Source: Bdellovibrio bacteriovorus W (GTDB lineage Bacteria; Bdellovibrionota; Bdellovibrionia; Bdellovibrionales; Bdellovibrionaceae). From it: a DNA stretch of 64,000 nucleotides. Below the pieces are notes generated by a model. It did no database searches. It was not told where the DNA came from and saw nothing but the letters and a program-made list of their open reading frames with translations. A program made the translations under genes and the position numbers. The stretch is taken from NCBI GenBank assembly GCA_000525675.1, contig CP002190.1, positions 1,302,001 to 1,366,000 on the forward strand. The letters run 5' to 3'. This document shows positions 5,549 to 19,904 of this stretch, in pieces (position 1 is the stretch's first letter; each line of letters opens with the position of its first letter).

Positions 5549-6049
5549 ATGGCAATTAAAACATATCAAAAAGACGGACATACTTGCTTTAAAATCCAGT
5601 TCACTTCCCGCAGTCGAATTGCGGGGCTTATGGTAAGGCTTCAGCGTGATTTAGGTGCTGTCAGCCATGCCGAAGCAAAGCGTGAATATGAAAAGCTCAA
5701 AAAAGAGGCTGAGGCCAAAAGAATCGAAAAAGAGCGCAACGGTCTTGTTTGGCGTGATCTTTTGGTGCGCTTTTATAAAGACGTTGTTCTTAACGGTCCC
5801 TATGAAAACAGCACTTCTAAGAGAGACAATTATAATGCTCTCATGATGCATAGCAAGTCTTGGTTGCAAATCCCCATCGATCAACTTCGGCCTATGTCGA
5901 TGCGATTGATTTTTAACGAGATGGAGAAAAAGGAGATTTCAAAAGGTCGCATAAAGCCCGTTCGAAGTGCGGTAAACACAGTCTTTGATTGGGCTCGTCT
6001 AGAACGCATTATACCGGCCCATGTTGAAAGCCCAGCTCGTGGGGGGTGA
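5549..6049 (+). CDS. tyrosine integrase, N-terminal part (frameshifted)
   Basis: A 166-residue product with the N-terminal arm-binding region and core-binding helical domain of a phage/ICE-type tyrosine recombinase. The lysine-rich helix around residues 45-65 and WRDLLVRFYKDVV (about 68-80) belong to these parts. The frame closes right after a run of six G at about 6041-6046; one more G would continue it into the catalytic half starting at 6046. The two halves therefore look like one gene of about 366 codons broken by a one-base indel. Alternatively, the GTG/TGA overlap at 6046-6049 could allow coupled translation of two chains. Confidence 0.7.
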   Translation: MAIKTYQKDGHTCFKIQFTSRSRIAGLMVRLQRDLGAVSHAEAKREYEKLKKEAEAKRIEKERNGLVWRDLLVRFYKDVVLNGPYENSTSKRDNYNALMMHSKSWLQIPIDQLRPMSMRLIFNEMEKKEISKGRIKPVRSAVNTVFDWARLERIIPAHVESPARGG

Positions 6050-6648
6050 GCCTTCCTAAGGTTGAAATCAAATTGCAGCCTATACTCAATCGTGACGAAA
6101 TCAGATTGTTTTTGAAAAAGGCACGAGAAATCGACCACGAATATTATTATTTATGGGCGGTGGCTGTAACCACAGGATGTCGCTCGGGGGAGCTTTGGGC
6201 ATTAAGATGGACCGATGTTTCGTTTGAGACGAGAATGATTTCCATCACGAAGTCATTCTCAAGTAGACTCGGATGCGACAAATCTACCAAAACCAAAGAG
6301 TCTCGTCAGGTGCCCATCAATACAGCCCTTGAGACGCTCTTAAAGGAGCTTAAGTTGAAAACTGCCTCTACAGGTTATGTTCTCCCCAGGATCACGTCGT
6401 GGAGGCGTGGAGAGGCGTCTAAGGTGTCGAGGAGATTTTGTGTTGCTGTTGGTATTCCTGAAATCACTTTCCATTCGACACGAGCCTGTTTTGCTGTTCA
6501 GTGCCTAGTTAGTGGTTTGGATGTTGTCACGACTATGAAGCTTGGTGGTTGGAAGGATGTTAAGAGCTTTCAGCATTACATCCGATTGGCGGGAGTGGAT
6601 ATTCAGGGGGGCGACGGATGGACTGGATTTGATTCCGCAGCACATTGA
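6046..6648 (+). CDS. tyrosine integrase, catalytic part
   Basis: A 200-residue product with a full catalytic set for a tyrosine recombinase: Arg in TGCRSGELWALRW (about residue 47), Lys in KTKESRQVP (about 85-90), the HxxR box in FHSTRACF, Trp in LGGWKD in place of the second His, and the nucleophile Tyr in FQHYIRLAG. Nothing essential is missing, so if it is made with, or fused to, the upstream part it could be active. It starts with GTG inside the stop of the upstream half. It probably integrated one of the neighbouring mobile segments; no att site is obvious beside it. Confidence 0.8.
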   Translation: MSLPKVEIKLQPILNRDEIRLFLKKAREIDHEYYYLWAVAVTTGCRSGELWALRWTDVSFETRMISITKSFSSRLGCDKSTKTKESRQVPINTALETLLKELKLKTASTGYVLPRITSWRRGEASKVSRRFCVAVGIPEITFHSTRACFAVQCLVSGLDVVTTMKLGGWKDVKSFQHYIRLAGVDIQGGDGWTGFDSAAH

Positions 6649-8820: not shown

Positions 8821-9744
8821 ATGGCTAAAAAAATATATTTAGTTTTAGGCGCAGGGCTTGGTCTTGAGTACGGTTTTCCCGACAATAAGAAGTTGAGAGA
8901 AATTTTGATGGATGAGTTAGAACCTTATGAAAAGGGTTTAAAAGAAATCCTGAGAGTATCGTATGCAGATACAATTGATGAAGTTGCAGATAAATATAAT
9001 GGGCATCGGGATACGCTTAGAAGGATGACTGCTAAGATTTTACTTCGAGGAGAAGACGAGGAGGTGCTTATGCGTCATGGGCCTAATACCTACAAACGTC
9101 TTTTAAAACAGATTGTGAATGCAAGGCTAAATGGCGATACTACAAAAATACTGACCTTTAATTACGATCGAAGTCTTCAATATTTAATATATAAAATGAA
9201 TGCGGTAGCTCCAGTCCAAAGTGAATGGGTTGATCCTTCAATTGTGACGCCGTTCTTTGGAAGACTTCCTTTGATGGATTGTGAACGAGGGCAAAGATCA
9301 AATACGCCATATCGTAAGTACGGTGGCGAAGTAGATATACCAATAAAAATCCTTGATAATCGTGAGTATCAGGATGTCTCTCAGGTTGATGACTTTTTTT
9401 CTGAGTGCAATATGAGTTTTATATGTCAAGGATCGAGAGCAGATTTAACTAGTATCAAAAGGAATTTTGAGGAAGCAGATTTAGTATTATTCTTGGGATT
9501 TGGATATCATAAAGCAAATATGGATATGCTTGGGTTTGATTTTTCAAAAAAGCATCCTAAGAAATTGATCGTTGGAACTGCCTTAGGATGCTCAAAAAGT
9601 GAAATAGCGAGAATTCAAAGGAAGTTTCCGGCATTGGAGTATTTGTATGATTGTACTGCATACGACCTTCTGACTAACAGTTTTGATTTGAGTGATTTTG
9701 ATGCTCATATCGAACGATCTAAGGAAACTTTTTTCGTTAGCTGA
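8821..9744 (+). CDS. SIR2-like domain protein (putative NADase)
   Basis: A 307-residue protein with SIR2-superfamily marks: LVLGAGLGLEYGFP (residues 7-20) for the GAG-x-x-x-x-x-G-x-P nucleotide loop, TFNYDRSLQYL (112-122) for the T-x-N-Y-D box, and ADLVLFLGFGYH (219-230) for the late glycine-rich strand. Standalone SIR2 proteins of this kind are known NAD+-depleting effectors of phage defence. The usual catalytic His (often in KxHG) is not obvious: the matching place reads PFFGRLP (about 144-150). It may use another His or be inactive. AGGA precedes the ATG. It ends 80 bases before the left 31-bp repeat, so it lies outside the 10-kb element. Confidence 0.7.
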   Translation: MAKKIYLVLGAGLGLEYGFPDNKKLREILMDELEPYEKGLKEILRVSYADTIDEVADKYNGHRDTLRRMTAKILLRGEDEEVLMRHGPNTYKRLLKQIVNARLNGDTTKILTFNYDRSLQYLIYKMNAVAPVQSEWVDPSIVTPFFGRLPLMDCERGQRSNTPYRKYGGEVDIPIKILDNREYQDVSQVDDFFSECNMSFICQGSRADLTSIKRNFEEADLVLFLGFGYHKANMDMLGFDFSKKHPKKLIVGTALGCSKSEIARIQRKFPALEYLYDCTAYDLLTNSFDLSDFDAHIERSKETFFVS

Positions 9745-9824
9745 TTCTTTGGTGTAACTAAAGGGGTAAACTTGACTTAACTAATTGAAATTAGGCTGAT
9801 GTCGAAGTTCACCCCATTTTTCCC

Positions 9825-9855
9825 TTCTCAAAAAATAAGCAAAAACCTAAGTATC
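9825..9855. repeat. left copy of 31-bp direct repeat (attL-like)
   Basis: The 31 bases 9825-9855 are identical to 19828-19858, and similarity extends to both sides (TTCACCCCA about 17 bases before, GAAA after one mismatch). A direct repeat of this size 10 kb apart around a conjugation-type gene set is what site-specific integration leaves. Confidence 0.75.
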
Positions 9856-9883
9856 AGAAACAACGTAGAACCTGCTCAGACAG

Positions 9884-9903
9884 GCGTAGACACGCGTAGA
9901 CAC
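9884..9903. repeat. tandem 10-bp repeat
   Basis: GCGTAGACAC occurs twice head to tail (9884-9893, 9894-9903), followed by GC. It sits 28 bases inside the left end of the element and may be a protein-binding array together with the TTGGCTAC repeats. Confidence 0.6.
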
Positions 9904-9949
9904 GCTATTTTTGATCCTAGGGACTGTGGGGGGCACCGGGGGACCATGG

Positions 9950-9978
9950 TTGGCTACTTTTGGCTACCATTTGGCTAC
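9950..9978. repeat. three phased TTGGCTAC repeats (iteron-like)
   Basis: TTGGCTAC starts at 9950, 9960 and 9971, a spacing of 10 and 11 bp, that is, one helical turn. Such phasing places binding sites on one face of the DNA as in replication or transfer origins. Open frames drawn through this region (for example 9799-10281) have no ribosome site and run through the repeats, so I treat the region as non-coding. Confidence 0.6.
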
Positions 9979-10016
9979 CACTTTTCCACACCCTTACAAG
10001 GCTCTTCTTTTTTCAA

Positions 10017-10043
10017 TTTTTCTGCATTTTCCATGCAGAAAAA
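10017..10043. repeat. 11-bp inverted repeat
   Basis: TTTTTCTGCAT (10017-10027) and ATGCAGAAAAA (10033-10043) are perfect inverted repeats with a 5-base loop. Part of the structured non-coding region at the left end of the element. Confidence 0.6.
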
Positions 10044-10067
10044 TGCCCATCTTGTCATCCATCAAAA

Positions 10068-10096
10068 CCCCCATCCACCGCGATGGGGGGGGGGGG
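10068..10096. repeat. hairpin followed by a run of 12 G
   Basis: CCCCCATC (10068-10075) pairs with GATGGGGG (10082-10089); the G run continues without break to 10096, giving 12 G in total. The run length may be unstable or miscalled. Confidence 0.55.
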
Positions 10097-10106
10097 ATTC
10101 TAGCCG

Positions 10107-10248
10107 CTCCCTTGCCAGCTTTTTCAGCACCTTAGGCGCTGGGGCGACCTGCTTTATCTTGCTGACCACCCACTCCCAACGTGTTGAGAGCAGGTGGTCA
10201 GCAAGGCAGGTCCCCCATTACTTAAGTAACAAAAAGCTGGCAAGGGAG
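10107..10248. repeat. nested inverted repeat, candidate transfer/replication origin
   Basis: Three pairs of arms share one centre: an outer 18 bp (10107-10124 with 10231-10248), a middle 7 bp (GACCTGC 10146-10152 with GCAGGTC 10206-10212), and an inner 12 bp (TTGCTGACCACC 10159-10170 with GGTGGTCAGCAA 10193-10204). The centre, 10171-10192, is unpaired. All arms are perfect. The structure is 142 bp long, far larger than a terminator, lacks a T tract, and lies just before the replication-relaxation gene. It could be the origin of transfer or replication of the element, or a structured RNA. Confidence 0.65.
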
Positions 10249-10401
10249 CTCATTTTCCTAGTTGGGAGAAGTTGTTTTTAGTTTTGAGAATAACAACAAG
10301 ATGGAGGGGAGGAGCTTTACCTCGGCCACTTCATCTTTCATCAGTCCGGCTTTGTTGTTGGTTTGTGTTTGCAAATCAAAAAGTCGGCGAAGGGAAAGAG
10401 T

Positions 10402-11160
10402 ATGCAGACTGCTTATAGTTTTTTTGATTTACCGTATGTTGTGCAAAAAGTAACTCCGCAAAAGGGGTACAGGTTAACCGAGCGAGAGCTTGATGTTCTG
10501 GAGTTCGTTCTAGAAATGAAATTTTCAACACTCGAAGATTTGCACGCGAAGTTTTTTAAAGTTACCAAGCTCGGTACCGTTAGTAACTCGCTGATCTGGG
10601 CAAGGCAGCGAGTTCATAAATTAGTAAAATCTGAAATGCTTCAGATTTTAACCGAAGTGTGCGCGAGACCGCTTTATGTGATCACTCAAAAAGGTTACTT
10701 GTTTTTGCGAAACTCTCGTTCGCAGAAAAATTATTGTCGTCCTTTGTTGGATGTAGACGGTCGGTTTTTTGATCATGATCAGCGTGTGGCGCAGGTTCGA
10801 ATTGTTCTTGAGAATTCTGGCGTAGTTAAAGGATGGATTTCAGAAAGGCAGCTTTCTGAAATTGAAGAGTATCGAAAGTATTTGCCTACGGAATTCCGCC
10901 CGGATGCGATCTATGTCACACCGGCAGGCAAGAGAGTTGCCTTCGAGCTTGAGATCGCACGCAAAACCAAAGAGCGATATCAGCAAAAGGTGAAGCGCTA
11001 CATTCACATTATGACGGCGGCACCAGATGCTGAACGCCTTTTTGAAGAAGTTCACTATGTTTGCGAAAAAGAAGCTGTTCGGAACCTGATTCAAGACCAC
11101 ACTCAACTTTTTCAGCCGCTGTTTCGTTTTAGCATGTTGACTGAAGATTTGGGCGAGTAG
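10402..11160 (+). CDS. replication-relaxation family protein
   Basis: From the ATG at 10402 (AGGGAAAGAG just upstream; a TTG at 10363 is the alternative) the product is 252 residues. The first half reads as winged-helix DNA binding (LTERELDVLEFVLEMKFSTL, about residues 23-42). The second half has RPDAIYVTP followed by VAFELEIARKTKERY (about 165-195), a D...E-x-E...K arrangement like a restriction-type nuclease fold. This matches the replication-relaxation family that accompanies FtsK/TraG-like ATPases on mobile elements. It would act on the structured DNA directly upstream. Twelve bases separate it from the coupling ATPase gene, so they form an operon. Confidence 0.7.
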   Translation: MQTAYSFFDLPYVVQKVTPQKGYRLTERELDVLEFVLEMKFSTLEDLHAKFFKVTKLGTVSNSLIWARQRVHKLVKSEMLQILTEVCARPLYVITQKGYLFLRNSRSQKNYCRPLLDVDGRFFDHDQRVAQVRIVLENSGVVKGWISERQLSEIEEYRKYLPTEFRPDAIYVTPAGKRVAFELEIARKTKERYQQKVKRYIHIMTAAPDAERLFEEVHYVCEKEAVRNLIQDHTQLFQPLFRFSMLTEDLGE

Positions 11161-11172
11161 GGAGGTTTTGAA

Positions 11173-12486
11173 ATGGAACAAGTTAAGAACTTATTTATGA
11201 GAAATTCCTCTGCGACTCAGGATCGTGTTGTTCTTGGGAAGGTCTCGGGATCTATGTGGCGAAAGGAAGAGCTAACCGAAGGACAACTGAATCACCATGT
11301 TCATGTTGTTGGGGCTTCTGGTTATGGGAAGACGGTTTTATTATCCCATATTATTAAGCAGCGAATCCAGCAGGGGAAAGGTTTGCTCTTTATTGACTTG
11401 AAATCGGATATGGAGACTTTGTTGAAGTTTTCCCAGCATGTGGCGGAGGCTAACCGTATTGATGACTTGATGATCTTTTCGCTTACGGAAAAGCAAATGT
11501 CCTTGTCCTATAATTTGATCGAGGATGGGACGGCTACGCAACTTAGGGATCGGATCATCAATAGTCTCAATTGGTCTGAGGAGTATTATAAGAATCAATC
11601 TTCGAGCTTCATCCTGAAGTTGATGATTTTGCTCTGCTGGATTCGTGACAATAAACAGGAACGGTTTCATTTGGGAACTGTTTTAGATTGTGCAAGTAAA
11701 CCGGCAAAGATCATTGAAGTTGGGAACAAGATTCCTATGACCGAAACGAAGTTGAAACTTTACGCCCAGAATCTGAAAGAGTTTTTAGATGCAAAGGAGC
11801 ATTTCAATTCTTTACAAGGCTTACGAACGCAGTTGGAAAGTATAGTTCTTTCGGACTTTGGGGAGTTGGTGACTTCCGAGATTCCAGGTATCAACTTATT
11901 TGAGGCCTATACCCAATCCAAAATCATTTTCCTATTTTTGGATTCCCGCCGGTATGGCGAAACAGCCAAGGCCTTGGGGCGTTTCATTTTGCAGGATTTA
12001 AAGTCAGTCTCAGCAAAGGTTGATGGCGAAGTTCCGAAAGAGAACCGCAAGCCGTTCTCGATAATCATCGACGAGTTCGCAGATTTAGCCCAAGAGGATT
12101 TTATTGGTTTCCTCGACCGCGCTCGAAGTAGTCGGATGTCGGTGGTGGTTGCACACCAAGAGATTTGCGATTTGCAGCGCATTAGCCCTGAGTTTGCAGG
12201 TCGACTTATGGGAAATACCTCAACCCTGTATTCGTTCCTCCAGAAGCGTCCTGAAAGCGCAGAAATCATCTCAGGCATGGCGGGGACTCGAACAGTTTGG
12301 AAGCAGACTAGGCAGACCGAACGGTTCGGTTTTTTTGAGGTGGATTCTGGCGGTGGAAGTCGGCGCGAGGTGGAGGAGTTTTGCATTCACCCGAATATCA
12401 TCAAGTCTCTGAGGGTGGGGAAATGTGTTTGTATTAAGAAGTACCCAGAGGCCAGGGCCTATTTAGTAAATGTCGCGCACGATTGA
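11173..12486 (+). CDS. VirD4/TraD-type coupling ATPase
   Basis: A 437-residue P-loop ATPase with Walker A GASGYGKT (residues 47-54), Walker B SIIIDEFADL (about 296-305) and VVVAHQEICDL (about 317-327), the Q-containing motif of conjugative coupling proteins and FtsK/HerA relatives. No N-terminal transmembrane segments are seen, which is usual for small TraD/TraG-like proteins on mobilisable elements. It would pump or recruit element DNA, together with the preceding replication-relaxation protein. GGAGG precedes the ATG. Its stop codon lies inside a perfect 10-bp inverted repeat. Confidence 0.8.
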   Translation: MEQVKNLFMRNSSATQDRVVLGKVSGSMWRKEELTEGQLNHHVHVVGASGYGKTVLLSHIIKQRIQQGKGLLFIDLKSDMETLLKFSQHVAEANRIDDLMIFSLTEKQMSLSYNLIEDGTATQLRDRIINSLNWSEEYYKNQSSSFILKLMILLCWIRDNKQERFHLGTVLDCASKPAKIIEVGNKIPMTETKLKLYAQNLKEFLDAKEHFNSLQGLRTQLESIVLSDFGELVTSEIPGINLFEAYTQSKIIFLFLDSRRYGETAKALGRFILQDLKSVSAKVDGEVPKENRKPFSIIIDEFADLAQEDFIGFLDRARSSRMSVVVAHQEICDLQRISPEFAGRLMGNTSTLYSFLQKRPESAEIISGMAGTRTVWKQTRQTERFGFFEVDSGGGSRREVEEFCIHPNIIKSLRVGKCVCIKKYPEARAYLVNVAHD

Positions 12487-12585: not shown

Positions 12586-13149
12586 ATGCCAATACCTTCA
12601 AAATTTAATGCAGACGGACTTCTCGATCCCGGCACTTACGATGCCAGTTTCACAGATATTCGTAACAGCATCCTAGTATTGGGAGATGGAAGCTCCTCAA
12701 GTTGGGATACTGAATGGCGCGCAGAGCTTGTGAATCGAGCTGAGGTTCTTGTAAAGCAACTTTGGGCGGTTGGAGTGAACGATGTATTTTTAGATGGTTC
12801 GTTCGTGGAAAACAAAGATCATCCTAATGATATTGATGGTTACTTTGATCCGCACCTTTCAATTTTGAATCCCGCAGACATGGTGATTTTTCAAAAGATT
12901 GTGTCTGATTTGAATAATCTCGATCCGCACAAGATTTGGAATTGGGATCCGCGTTCCAGAAAAGCATATCGGGGCTATCCGAAAAAGCAGCTTCCGATGT
13001 GGTTGTTCTACAGGGTGGAGTTTTTCCCTCATTTAGATCAGGGAACCGGTATTAAAGATCAGCATGGAAATGATCAAAAATTTCCTGCGGCGTTTAGACA
13101 ATCAAGAAGTGAATTTAAACCAAAAGGAATTATCAAGGTTATTCCTTAA
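12586..13149 (+). CDS. nucleotidyltransferase-like protein (DUF6932 type)
   Basis: A 187-residue protein with the nucleotidyltransferase core GSFVENKDHPNDIDGYFDP (about residues 69-87), where Gly-Ser and the Asp-x-Asp pair match the metal-binding motif of the polymerase-beta/MNT superfamily. Proteins of this kind (DUF6932) are commonly paired with an XRE regulator in toxin-antitoxin-like pairs. GGGGAG precedes the ATG. The XRE gene follows nine bases after the stop, then a SEFIR/TIR gene ten bases later, so three genes appear co-transcribed. Target (tRNA, protein or small molecule) unknown. Confidence 0.65.
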   Translation: MPIPSKFNADGLLDPGTYDASFTDIRNSILVLGDGSSSSWDTEWRAELVNRAEVLVKQLWAVGVNDVFLDGSFVENKDHPNDIDGYFDPHLSILNPADMVIFQKIVSDLNNLDPHKIWNWDPRSRKAYRGYPKKQLPMWLFYRVEFFPHLDQGTGIKDQHGNDQKFPAAFRQSRSEFKPKGIIKVIP

Positions 13150-13158
13150 GGAGTGTTT

Positions 13159-13596
13159 ATGATTAAGACAGAAAAAGAATATCTAGAGTCAAAAATACGA
13201 TTGGATGCTGAGTTTAAAGAACTCGATGCTCATGCCGAGAAAATGAAAAAATCAGGCCTGACTCCTGAACAAATTAAACTTGCTCTTGATCCATTGGCGT
13301 CTTTTGCACTTCAACTTAAAGAAGAGGTTGAGGAGTATGAAAAACTTAAAAGAGGTCAATTTGACATTCTTGAAAATTTCAATGGAATTGGCAGGATGCT
13401 CGTCGCTCTCCGAATTTTCAAAGGTTTGAAGCAGAAGGAATTAGCGGAAAAGCTTGATGTCACGGAGGCGCAAGTCTCCCGGGACGAGCGCAATGAATAT
13501 CATGGAGCTTCCATCGAGAAAATTCAAAAGGTGCTCGATGCGCTTGGGGTGACTTTGAAATCTGCGATTGAGACTGATTACAAAGATGCGGTGTAA
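13159..13596 (+). CDS. XRE-family regulator, probable antitoxin
   Basis: A 145-residue protein with a charged helical N-terminal half, then a Cro/C1 helix-turn-helix (LVALRIFKGLKQKELAEKLD, about residues 77-96, and VTEAQVSRDE) near the C-terminus. Start ATG 13159 is fixed by AAGGAG six bases upstream; a GTG two codons earlier overlaps that site. It likely represses its own operon through the palindrome at 12536-12561 and may neutralise the upstream nucleotidyltransferase-like protein. Confidence 0.7.
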   Translation: MIKTEKEYLESKIRLDAEFKELDAHAEKMKKSGLTPEQIKLALDPLASFALQLKEEVEEYEKLKRGQFDILENFNGIGRMLVALRIFKGLKQKELAEKLDVTEAQVSRDERNEYHGASIEKIQKVLDALGVTLKSAIETDYKDAV

Positions 13597-13605
13597 AGGA
13601 TTGAG

Positions 13606-14142
13606 ATGAGTAGTAAGCCAACGGAACCAAGTATAAGCGCATTTATTTCCTACTCATGGGATAGTGATCCTCATGTTGAATGGGTAAACTCACTTGCGCA
13701 TATTTTGAGGGGCAACTCCATCAAATCACTGACCGACCAAATCTGTGTTGGCCCTGGTGCCAGTTTGAATAATTTTATGAGATTTGGGGTTGATAATTCA
13801 TCATGGAAAATTTGTGTTATTTCTGACGGCTATGTCTCGAAAATGAATGATCTTAAAACCGGAGTAGGAAAAGAAATAGAAATGCTGGAAAGGCACATGG
13901 AATCGGAATATATTATTCCGATTCTAAAGAACAACTCCGGTAAAGGTGTTCCAGATTTCTTTGAGGGAAAGTTCTGGATTGATTTTGATGGCGGAGAATA
14001 TTTAGATTGTATTCAAAAGCTGGTAAAAAGAATTTTGGGCTTCAATAAAATGATCGAGCCCATGATTGGCCTGAATCCATACTCAAAAGAAGTTTCTAAT
14101 GTTCGTATGCTTGAGTCAGATATTAAAAAACTACGTTTCTGA
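13606..14142 (+). CDS. SEFIR/TIR-domain protein (frame broken before its C-terminal part)
   Basis: The 178-residue product opens with AFISYSWDSDPHVEWVNSLA (about residues 11-30), then GPGASLNNFM, SSWKICVISDGYVSK and TGVGKEIEML. This succession is typical of SEFIR/TIR domains, which in bacteria are often NAD+-cleaving or signalling effectors. Glu in GVGKE is the likely catalytic-position residue. The frame ends at TGA 14140-14142 shortly after a run of six A (about 14128-14133). With one extra A it continues into the 118-codon frame starting at 14163. It is the third gene of the nucleotidyltransferase/XRE operon. Confidence 0.7.
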   Translation: MSSKPTEPSISAFISYSWDSDPHVEWVNSLAHILRGNSIKSLTDQICVGPGASLNNFMRFGVDNSSWKICVISDGYVSKMNDLKTGVGKEIEMLERHMESEYIIPILKNNSGKGVPDFFEGKFWIDFDGGEYLDCIQKLVKRILGFNKMIEPMIGLNPYSKEVSNVRMLESDIKKLRF

Positions 14143-16872: not shown

Positions 16873-19191
16873 TTAGGCTGTCGTGTCCGCCTTTTTTCCG
16901 ATCGCCTCAATTAAAGAACTATGATGAAGAGGGTCCTTTTGTAGAAGCTGCATCAACTCCTTTACAGCGTTGGGCACGAGCATTATTAATTCATCGTGTT
17001 TCGTGATCTTTTCAAGGGTGTTGAAGTGCGAAAAGTGGTGCAAAACTTTTAATTGGTGTACTCCTCCCATGAGAATATCTAGACGTTGATCAATCTCAGT
17101 GTTTGTTCCAGGTAGCTTTGCGAGGGAGTAGATTTCTAAAAACCGCCTAATCGCATTAGGGATTAATAGAAAAAAGTCGTCATCCAGCGAGCACCCTCGT
17201 TCGTGAAACTCATGTAAAAGTTCATATAGAAACACATACTCTGACTTTGTTTTTCTTAGTCGTGAAGGAAGTGGGACAATAGAAGAATGATCCTTCGACA
17301 ATCTTTGAATGAAGTAGTACTCACACTTTGCAAATTCATCTTTTTTCTTTTTCATTGGAGATGAATCTTGTAGAAAAGAGAAGAATTCAAAGTTGTGTGT
17401 TGAAATAAAAAGCTGTTTGAAGCAACTCACTACCTTTTTGGTATCAGCAGGGTCAATCCTTCTGAAAAAGAATGAGTTTATGAGGGCATAAACCTGCGCA
17501 ATATGGTTTCCATCTAAGCTAGAAATTGGGTCATCAATAAAGACCACGGTTTCACGTAATTTTCCCTCTTTGAATAGACTCTCGAGTGTCACGAGAAAAT
17601 ATGCAAAAGAGATAGCAGTTTTTTCGCCTTCACTCAAGTTACTGGCTAGATTCTCTCCTCTTTTGAGGTGGAACTTATCTTCTGGTGTTACCTCAATATA
17701 TATATCGTCTCTATTTAAGAAGGACCTAATAAAGCTATTTAAGGCATCCTGTCCGGCGACCACACTTTTTAGTTTGGAAAGGATTTGTTGATTTTTGAAT
17801 TCCAATTTTTGAGCTATAGATAGATATCTTTTGACGAGCTTGTCGGCTCGATGTTTTTTTATCGATTTTTCTATGTAGTTTTCCCGTTCCAATAACTCTG
17901 CCACACAGTGATTTTTGAGTCTTTCGCGTGAATGTTGTTGCTCGCTTGTAAAGTTAGCGACAATGTTATTGTGACGCTCGATGACTGCATTGATTTTGGT
18001 CATACATTCTAGAAGGCGACTGTCTACGGTCAAATCTATTGCGCTTGGTGAAATGGAGATAAAGATATTTCCATCTTCCTTTCGGTTAAGATCGTCTTTT
18101 AGAATCTTGGCGGTAGCTTCGAATTCTTCGCATATGGTCCTTAATTGCGTGATATATTGCTCAAAGTCATCTTGGCATGATTCGGTGAGTTCATGTTTAT
18201 TTGGTGGCATTAGGAAGGTCTTTAATTTGTTCGTCTCGGTTTCAATGTCAGTACGACATTTTTGTATTCTGTCTCTGAGTATTGCAGACTCGTTGGAGAA
18301 GTAGGATTTCAGATGTTCGATTCGGAGATCTGTTAATTTACTACCGCAGAATGAACATTCACTTAGGTTCTCATGAAGAGTAAGCCCATTTTTTGACCAT
18401 TTATACAGTTGCTCATTGTTTTCCAGTACTTCCAATAGATCAGATTGACGTGGTTCGGATTTTAAAATCTCAACAACTTCGGTCGAATATTTTATTAGAT
18501 TCGTGGAGATCTTGATTGGCGAAACATTGGTCTTGTTGTTACTAGACAGAGCTGTTTTCCTTGCAGTGCTCAGTTCGACTTCATCCCTTATTATATGATC
18601 CGCCAAGGCATTTTGGACCTTTGGAATGATTGCTTTTAAGTGCCTTAGGTCGAACTCGATCAAACTTTGAAAAGTTTCATTCTTAATAGTTTTGGCTTCT
18701 TTAGAAAGTATTTTTTCGAAGTCAGAAAGTAAATTCTGATCCCCCTGGTACCTTTCTATTCTTCCTTTTTGGTTTTTATCGCCTTTGATTCGCAATATCT
18801 TTTTTTCATTCTGTTCATATTCGCTTCGGAGTGCGACATTTTCACCAACGTCAAATGAAATTGGTGAAAATGAGGTGCCAGCATCCCACTTCAAGTTCTC
18901 TCTAATATAATCTGCATTGAAAACTCGTACTCTTGACGGTAGTGATTCGAGGTTTTTCGTTGTTATCTCAGTGCCGTCGGTGAGTACGAGTTTGAAGTCA
19001 GCCTCTGAAAAACTTGCGTCTAGTATACCTTTCTCAAGTGATGAGAAGATTCTTGAAAGAGTGGTTTTGCCTGAGTAATTCCATCCATAAATTATATTCC
19101 GTTCACAAAAGTCGGAAATGCCCCGGGAGTTGCTCCACTTAAAGTCTTTGTAGATACCCATGTTCGATATACTTTTAATTCGTTTAATCAT
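16873..19191 (-). CDS. AAA_13 (RloC-like) ABC-type ATPase
   Basis: A 772-residue SMC/Rad50-like ATPase: Walker A GWNYSGKTTL (residues 36-45), a long coiled-coil region with CSFCG (about 279-283) that resembles a zinc hook, ABC signature NLSEGEKTAISFA (about 517-529), and Walker B VVFIDDPISSLDGNH (about 546-560). This is the AAA_13 architecture of RloC and PrrC-like defence proteins. The C-terminal 190 residues (for example LIPNAIRRFLEIYSL) follow the family, but I cannot point to a certain anticodon-nuclease triad. AAGG precedes the ATG. Likely an antiviral or stress effector. Confidence 0.8.
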   Translation of the reverse strand: MIKRIKSISNMGIYKDFKWSNSRGISDFCERNIIYGWNYSGKTTLSRIFSSLEKGILDASFSEADFKLVLTDGTEITTKNLESLPSRVRVFNADYIRENLKWDAGTSFSPISFDVGENVALRSEYEQNEKKILRIKGDKNQKGRIERYQGDQNLLSDFEKILSKEAKTIKNETFQSLIEFDLRHLKAIIPKVQNALADHIIRDEVELSTARKTALSSNNKTNVSPIKISTNLIKYSTEVVEILKSEPRQSDLLEVLENNEQLYKWSKNGLTLHENLSECSFCGSKLTDLRIEHLKSYFSNESAILRDRIQKCRTDIETETNKLKTFLMPPNKHELTESCQDDFEQYITQLRTICEEFEATAKILKDDLNRKEDGNIFISISPSAIDLTVDSRLLECMTKINAVIERHNNIVANFTSEQQHSRERLKNHCVAELLERENYIEKSIKKHRADKLVKRYLSIAQKLEFKNQQILSKLKSVVAGQDALNSFIRSFLNRDDIYIEVTPEDKFHLKRGENLASNLSEGEKTAISFAYFLVTLESLFKEGKLRETVVFIDDPISSLDGNHIAQVYALINSFFFRRIDPADTKKVVSCFKQLFISTHNFEFFSFLQDSSPMKKKKDEFAKCEYYFIQRLSKDHSSIVPLPSRLRKTKSEYVFLYELLHEFHERGCSLDDDFFLLIPNAIRRFLEIYSLAKLPGTNTEIDQRLDILMGGVHQLKVLHHFSHFNTLEKITKHDELIMLVPNAVKELMQLLQKDPLHHSSLIEAIGKKADTTA

Positions 19192-19792: not shown

Positions 19793-19827
19793 ACCAGATA
19801 TCTTCATCAGTTTCACCCCAATTTCCT

Positions 19828-19858
19828 TTCTCAAAAAATAAGCAAAAACCTAAGTATC
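19828..19858. repeat. right copy of 31-bp direct repeat (attR-like)
   Basis: Identical to 9825-9855. It is followed after 10 bases by an odd palindrome (TTAACGAGTCTCGTTA-like, about 19868-19882). It lies between the element's last gene and the convergent GNAT-fusion gene. Confidence 0.75.
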
Positions 19859-19904
19859 CGAAATTATTAACGAGTCTCGTTATTTAATATCAGACGAAAG
19901 TTTC

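Follow-up and report, generated by a model that had tools for sequence, protein, structure and literature searches.

Within the 64-kb stretch of DNA analysed here (the window), which comes from a Bdellovibrio-type predatory bacterium, a nested inverted repeat is followed on the plus strand by mobC and mobB, whose predicted products are a relaxase and a coupling protein. The features of the locus, with their coordinates and strand, are the following:

5549-6648, plus strand: tyrosine integrase, broken into two ORFs that overlap by 4 nt near the G run 6041-6046; probably part of the same element
9808-9860, plus strand: direct repeat, copy 1, at the left edge of the module common to three genomes
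9950-9978, plus strand: three direct repeats TTGGCTAC, spaced by one helical turn (exact matches at 9950, 9960 and 9971); candidate binding sites for the relaxase or an accessory protein
9997-10251, no strand assigned: putative minimal oriT cis unit, made up of the nested hairpin and, to its left, a flank containing two small inverted repeats; delimited from a 93% copy in another genome (G001, L119)
10106-10249, no strand assigned: nested inverted repeat, predicted oriT of MOBC type from its arms, fold and conserved adjacency to mobC
10106-10124, no strand assigned: outer arm, 5′ side, 19 bp, perfect; GCTCCC within it resembles the inner octamer CACTCCCA
10146-10152, no strand assigned: middle arm GACCTGC, 7 bp
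10158-10180, no strand assigned: inner arm, 5′ side, containing the conserved core TGACCACCCACTCCCAACG at 10163-10181
10166-10167, minus strand: predicted nick (nic), 5′-GTGGGTG(10167)/G(10166)TC-3′, from GACCACCCAC in common with CloDF13
10183-10205, no strand assigned: inner arm, 3′ side, reading AGGTGGTC instead of GGGTGGTC
10206-10212, no strand assigned: middle arm GCAGGTC, 7 bp
10231-10249, no strand assigned: outer arm, 3′ side, pairing with 10106-10124
10402-11160, plus strand: mobC, predicted MOBC-family relaxase (winged helix and PD-(D/E)XK), from PF13814, NF041423, catalytic residues and fold
11173-12486, plus strand: mobB, predicted VirD4/TraD-type coupling protein, from profile matches
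19812-19863, plus strand: direct repeat, copy 2, 10.0 kb downstream of copy 1 and 92% identical to it; possible element end

For mobC, a start at ATG 10402 is favoured over TTG 10363. The product matches PF13814 (Replic_Relax) with an E value of 1.5e-5 and 25.6 bits, just over the cut-off of 25.3, and NF041423 (MobC_subf) with an E value of 2.4e-19, but under that model's cut-off. PF13814 is counted by CONJscan as the MOBC relaxase superfamily (PMC5357655), and MOBC relaxases are kin of the PD-(D/E)XK restriction enzymes (PMC12857230; PMC9299015). Residues P167-D168, E182, E184, K188, R192 and Y193 are common to this protein and to the MobC of CloDF13-like plasmids typed as MOBC; across 28 relatives D168 and E182 are invariant, and P167 and E184 are found in at least 90%. 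The predicted structure (pLDDT 87.7) has a MarR-type winged helix at the N-terminus (residues 18-110, Z about 11), and its top Foldseek match is the restriction enzyme EcoO109I (E 2.8e-4), followed by repair and nicking endonucleases at weaker scores. Since the best 50 matches of the same model in VIA-align are winged-helix proteins only, the nuclease domain is assigned from Foldseek and the shared residues. Judged from sequence and model, 10402-11160 is assigned to the MOBC-type relaxases, in the family of CloDF13 MobC, and is predicted to nick DNA. A second MobC homologue in the same genome (L057; G000:C1:1257343-1257909) has neither a strong adjoining hairpin nor a match to the covariance model R1 described below.

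The module 9803-12461 is common to two other genomes, G023 and G035, at about 89% DNA identity, and the remainder differs. In G035 its neighbours are TrbI, a VirB4-like ATPase and an intact integrase of 396 aa, a setting like that of an ICE. In the window, the 53-bp direct repeat pair encloses the predicted oriT, mobC, mobB and defence-like cargo. The split of the integrase at 5549-6648 may reflect a frameshift, a pseudogene or a sequencing error. A search for TrbI in the genome of the window found none, and the VirB4 profile matched MobB itself and one weak 18-residue stretch. Because no gene of a type IV secretion system (T4SS) was found there, the element would need a helper T4SS, and this result together with the split integrase means that the copy in the window may be inactive.

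Structure and conservation of the nested inverted repeat

The repeat spans 144 bp and has three arm pairs; the first-pass annotation had recognized it correctly, with a slightly short measure of 142 bp, and its 7-bp middle arms stand as described, while its outer arms of 18 bp and inner arms of 12 bp are extended here to 19 and 13 bp. The inner arms CTTGCTGACCACC are perfect over 13 bp (10158-10170 and 10193-10205) and extend to 23 nt at 87%. The arm pairs were said to share one centre, but their centres lie at 10177.5, 10179 and 10181.5; owing to asymmetric bulges they are nested without being exactly concentric. Folded as RNA, 10090-10260 reaches -96.2 kcal/mol (z -9.3), and as DNA -52.3 (z -9.0), in both cases with no shuffle as good. 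Among all 150-nt windows of the 64 kb (mean -34, s.d. 7.5 kcal/mol) the hairpin ranks first at -92.8 kcal/mol, and the runner-up reaches -58.8. The hairpin is present once in the 3.0-Mb genome; a second DNA match there is the palindrome matching itself. A terminator was rejected, as it had been at first reading, on account of the size of the hairpin and the lack of a T tract on its 3′ side, and the terminators listed for the region are small, unrelated sites. A run of twelve G residues at 10085-10096, where relatives read GGGAGTTTTGGGG or similar, is a local change just outside the outer arm.

Homologues of MobC occur in 36 of 100 related genomes, and almost every homologous locus has a very strong nested hairpin, which starts no more than about 300 nt ahead of mobC or, in one group that is more distantly related, lies up to about 400 nt 3′ of the mobC stop codon. 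The first-pass annotation had named the absence of such a structure beside homologous genes as grounds for abandoning its reading; the hairpin is instead present beside them. No such hairpin was found at L036, L045, L048, L067, L072 and L057, some of which are contig ends. Wider stretches fall into two gene orders, oriT-mobC-mobB and mobB-mobC-oriT, between which the orientation of the motif does not change. In the window and at the homologous loci, the predicted oriT has both a MOBC relaxase and a coupling protein of VirD4 type beside it. The Bdellovibrio sp. HAGR004 plasmids pBdHAGR1 and pBdHAGR4 also carry the nested hairpin.

The 5′ arm core and loop have the consensus TGACCACCCrCyCyCwACGA. 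Eight columns are invariant in an alignment of 21 sequences, including C at every second motif position; in a separate count of columns the anchor pattern forced some of them, and only C at -6, -8 and -10 is independent there. Covariation, which had been proposed as a check on the structure, is extremely strong: both sides have changed in 20 of 22 pairs, the score is 0.576 against 0.172 in shuffled alignments (0/500 as high), and the signal is lost when the partner is slid by 1-3 columns. R1, a covariance model of the Bdellovibrionota oriT hairpin from whose building the downstream-group sites were left out, recovers those sites at 30-44 bits and finds sites in 50 of the 100 genomes searched. 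Locus-matched variants of the octamer next to the predicted nick are found again in the outer portion of the hairpin, more often than expected (best-match sum 114 against a permutation mean of 105.5; 13 of 5000 permutations as high). This modest evidence suggests that one protein, presumably MobC, reads both copies. Outside these genomes, a viral contig matched the core pattern inside an ORF that lacks a matching second arm, which was taken as chance, and the phage collection searched held no convincing similar site.

Mismatches in the arms are unevenly divided between the strands. On the gene-sense strand A.C outnumbers G.T by 73 to 24, about threefold, and after removal of near-duplicates and of the innermost 13 pairs by 36 to 16 (p 0.008). 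As a gene-sense A.C is a G.T on the minus strand, the latter folds better, by 7.7 kcal/mol on average. A bias of this kind would be expected if the minus strand were the single strand transferred, and an RNA read off the minus strand would fit it equally.

Copies of the hairpin also stand apart from the mobilization genes. G001 (L119) holds a 93% copy of 9997-10251, whose identity stops at the outer 3′ arm and to the left of which the contig runs out after 168 bp; neither MobC nor MobB was found in the 10 kb adjoining it, and the 99%-complete genome gave no MobC match. In a further six of the 20 stretches inspected, neither MobC nor MobB lies within the stretch (L123, L124, L128, L132, L134 and, at a contig end, L126), and together with L119 these hairpins are candidate solo oriTs. 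The TTGGCTAC repeats to the left of the cis unit are present in G023, degenerate in G035 and absent from the solo copy.

Comparison with known transfer origins and the predicted nick

A close likeness is to the mobilization region of CloDF13, the experimentally studied prototype of MOBC, where a perfect 14-bp outer repeat (9650-9663 and 9770-9783) encloses GACCACCC and GGGTGGTC. The longest word common to CloDF13 and the window, read in the gene sense, is the 10-mer GACCACCCAC at 10164-10173, for which about 0.02 occurrences are expected by chance. We take the CloDF13 nick to be GGGTG/GTCGGG, and the complement of GACCACCCAC spans this nick; the exact nic position in CloDF13 is said to have been given by Nunez and de la Cruz in 2001. 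With the CloDF13 nic so placed, the inverted repeats of both regions are nested, and in each the inner repeat contains the nic core GGGTGGTC. The nick is therefore predicted between 10167 and 10166 on the minus strand, on the strength of the common 10-mer, the CloDF13 nic as we take it and the placement of nic in pMET1. In pMET1 the order oriT-mobB-mobC is as in CloDF13, and nic lies inside the inverted repeat IR2 (PMC2262945). The opposite inner arm in the window reads AGGTGGTC, so that the predicted nick site is not symmetric.

The likeness to CloDF13 extends to the GACCACCCAC/GTGGGTGGTC core of the nested inverted repeat, a PD-(D/E)XK MobC, a coupling protein of its own and the lack of a T4SS of its own. 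CloDF13-like oriTs score weakly with R1, whose match in one such plasmid is at the right spot (16.7 bits, E 0.14); this low score and the much longer apical loop of CloDF13 count against the oriT reading. The two regions differ in that CloDF13 has a 47-nt apical region and the order oriT-mobB-mobC, whereas the window has a short loop with CyCwACGA and the order oriT-mobC-mobB; CloDF13 is moreover a replicating plasmid, and the copy in the window is chromosomal and accompanied by an integrase. As far as can be drawn from their description, pMET1 and HPI-ECOR31 likewise combine a MOBC pair with a nic within an inverted repeat, but they are enterobacterial and two nic sites were deduced there, whereas here one arm only keeps the full GGGTGGTC (PMC2262945). 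TraX of the Enterococcus plasmid pAD1 is a MOBC relaxase with a winged helix, a restriction-enzyme-like active site and direct-repeat binding sites away from nic (PMC12857230); those repeats number five, in contrast to the three candidate TTGGCTAC repeats here, which are missing from the solo copy, and the two oriTs are likened by description. The candidate solo copies resemble the oriT mimics of the staphylococcal pWBG749 family, relaxase-less copies usable by a relaxase encoded elsewhere (PMC8136818), although that system is staphylococcal and the present one is MOBC, with mobilization predicted.

Proposed function and alternative explanations

We conclude, with a probability of about 0.88, that the nested inverted repeat serves a MOBC-type integrative mobilizable element as its origin of transfer (oriT), the site at which the DNA of a mobile element is nicked to leave the cell. 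An origin of transfer was among the readings offered by the first-pass annotation, and it is the one borne out by the adjoining MOBC relaxase and coupling protein, the CloDF13-like structure and core, the linkage in relatives and the solo copies. MobC would bind the oriT via its winged-helix domain, and its PD-(D/E)XK domain would nick the minus strand in the inner arm, most likely at the site given above; as the inner palindrome is asymmetric, with the full GGGTGGTC in one arm only, strand and direction would be fixed. MobB would then link the relaxosome with a type IV secretion channel that another element supplies, and the transferred minus strand would fold into the long hairpin, probably a mark for recognition or for re-closure in the recipient.

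A structured RNA is very unlikely, whether as a small RNA on which mobilization depends or as a 5′ leader regulating mobC. The strong RNA fold and the better fold of the minus strand are compatible with it, and the island SGI1 offers a precedent in a self-encoded small RNA needed for its mobilization (PMC9299015). No sigma70-like promoter was found around the hairpin, however, an Rfam search of 5-20 kb up to E 1 gave no match, and the best-conserved part coincides with the CloDF13 nic region. A sense leader of mobC is further opposed by the excess of A.C mismatches on the gene-sense strand and by the architectures in which the hairpin lies 3′ of mobC or stands alone; the 93% copy in G001, which gave no MobC match, stops at the edge of the hairpin and therefore marks a separate cis unit. 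The new type of RNA considered at first is thus not needed, although an RNA from the minus strand is formally compatible with the strand bias.

Slightly less probable again is an origin at which MobC initiates rolling-circle replication of the excised element. The name of PF13814, 'replication-relaxation', speaks for such an origin, and in some ICEs the relaxase drives replication as well. Against it, the MOBC members studied are relaxases (PMC12857230), and the partner of mobC is a coupling-protein gene, for which replication would have no use; replication, also suggested in the first-pass annotation, is kept as a possible secondary function. The least probable explanation considered is a recombination site or protein-binding palindrome (an attachment or centromere-like site) unrelated to transfer. 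Integron attC sites also use folded bottom-strand hairpins, a repeat that may be an element end lies 250 bp away, and the MobC winged helix also resembles some centromere-binding proteins, but the hairpin tracks mobC and mobB and not the integrase, occurs on circular plasmids and matches the CloDF13 mobilization region.

An oriT of this kind is already known, and what appears to be new is its breadth in Bdellovibrionota, the solo copies and a counterpart in Spiroplasma, of which we found no description; in the open-licence papers searched, nothing relevant turned up on an oriT or a MOBC element in Bdellovibrio. Little has been described of gene transfer in predatory Bdellovibrionota, and the three Bdellovibrio plasmids that carry this MobC relaxase are classed as non-mobilizable by MOB-suite. 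With a covariance model of the oriT, their mobile islands can be located from sequence, as can hitchhikers that lack a relaxase. For the MOBC relaxases, in which no covalent intermediate has been detected, it also provides many natural sites whose core is conserved and which have a predicted nick and a strand bias.

In Spiroplasma, 38 plasmid records and L139:3006-3068 show a nested hairpin that is rich in GC and has CACTCCCAACG as its core; R1 matches this hairpin at 34.3 bits (E 7.6e-7). On pSKU146 it comes after VirB4, T4CP and a 214-aa protein, for which Pfam gave no match to a relaxase. We tentatively suggest, at somewhat short of an even chance, that Bdellovibrionota share a widespread class of MOBC oriT, a strand-biased nested hairpin with the alternating-C core CACCCrCyCyCwACGA that is present in roughly half the relatives that were searched and is pirated by relaxase-less islands, and that its counterpart on Spiroplasma conjugative plasmids would point to an undescribed relaxase acting on the same kind of site. 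The island in the window also carries candidate anti-phage genes, at 8821-9744, 12586-14142 and 16873-19191, with weak SIR2-like, PDC-M63A/DUF6932, TIR/bSEFIR and PDC-S06 (AAA_13) matches.
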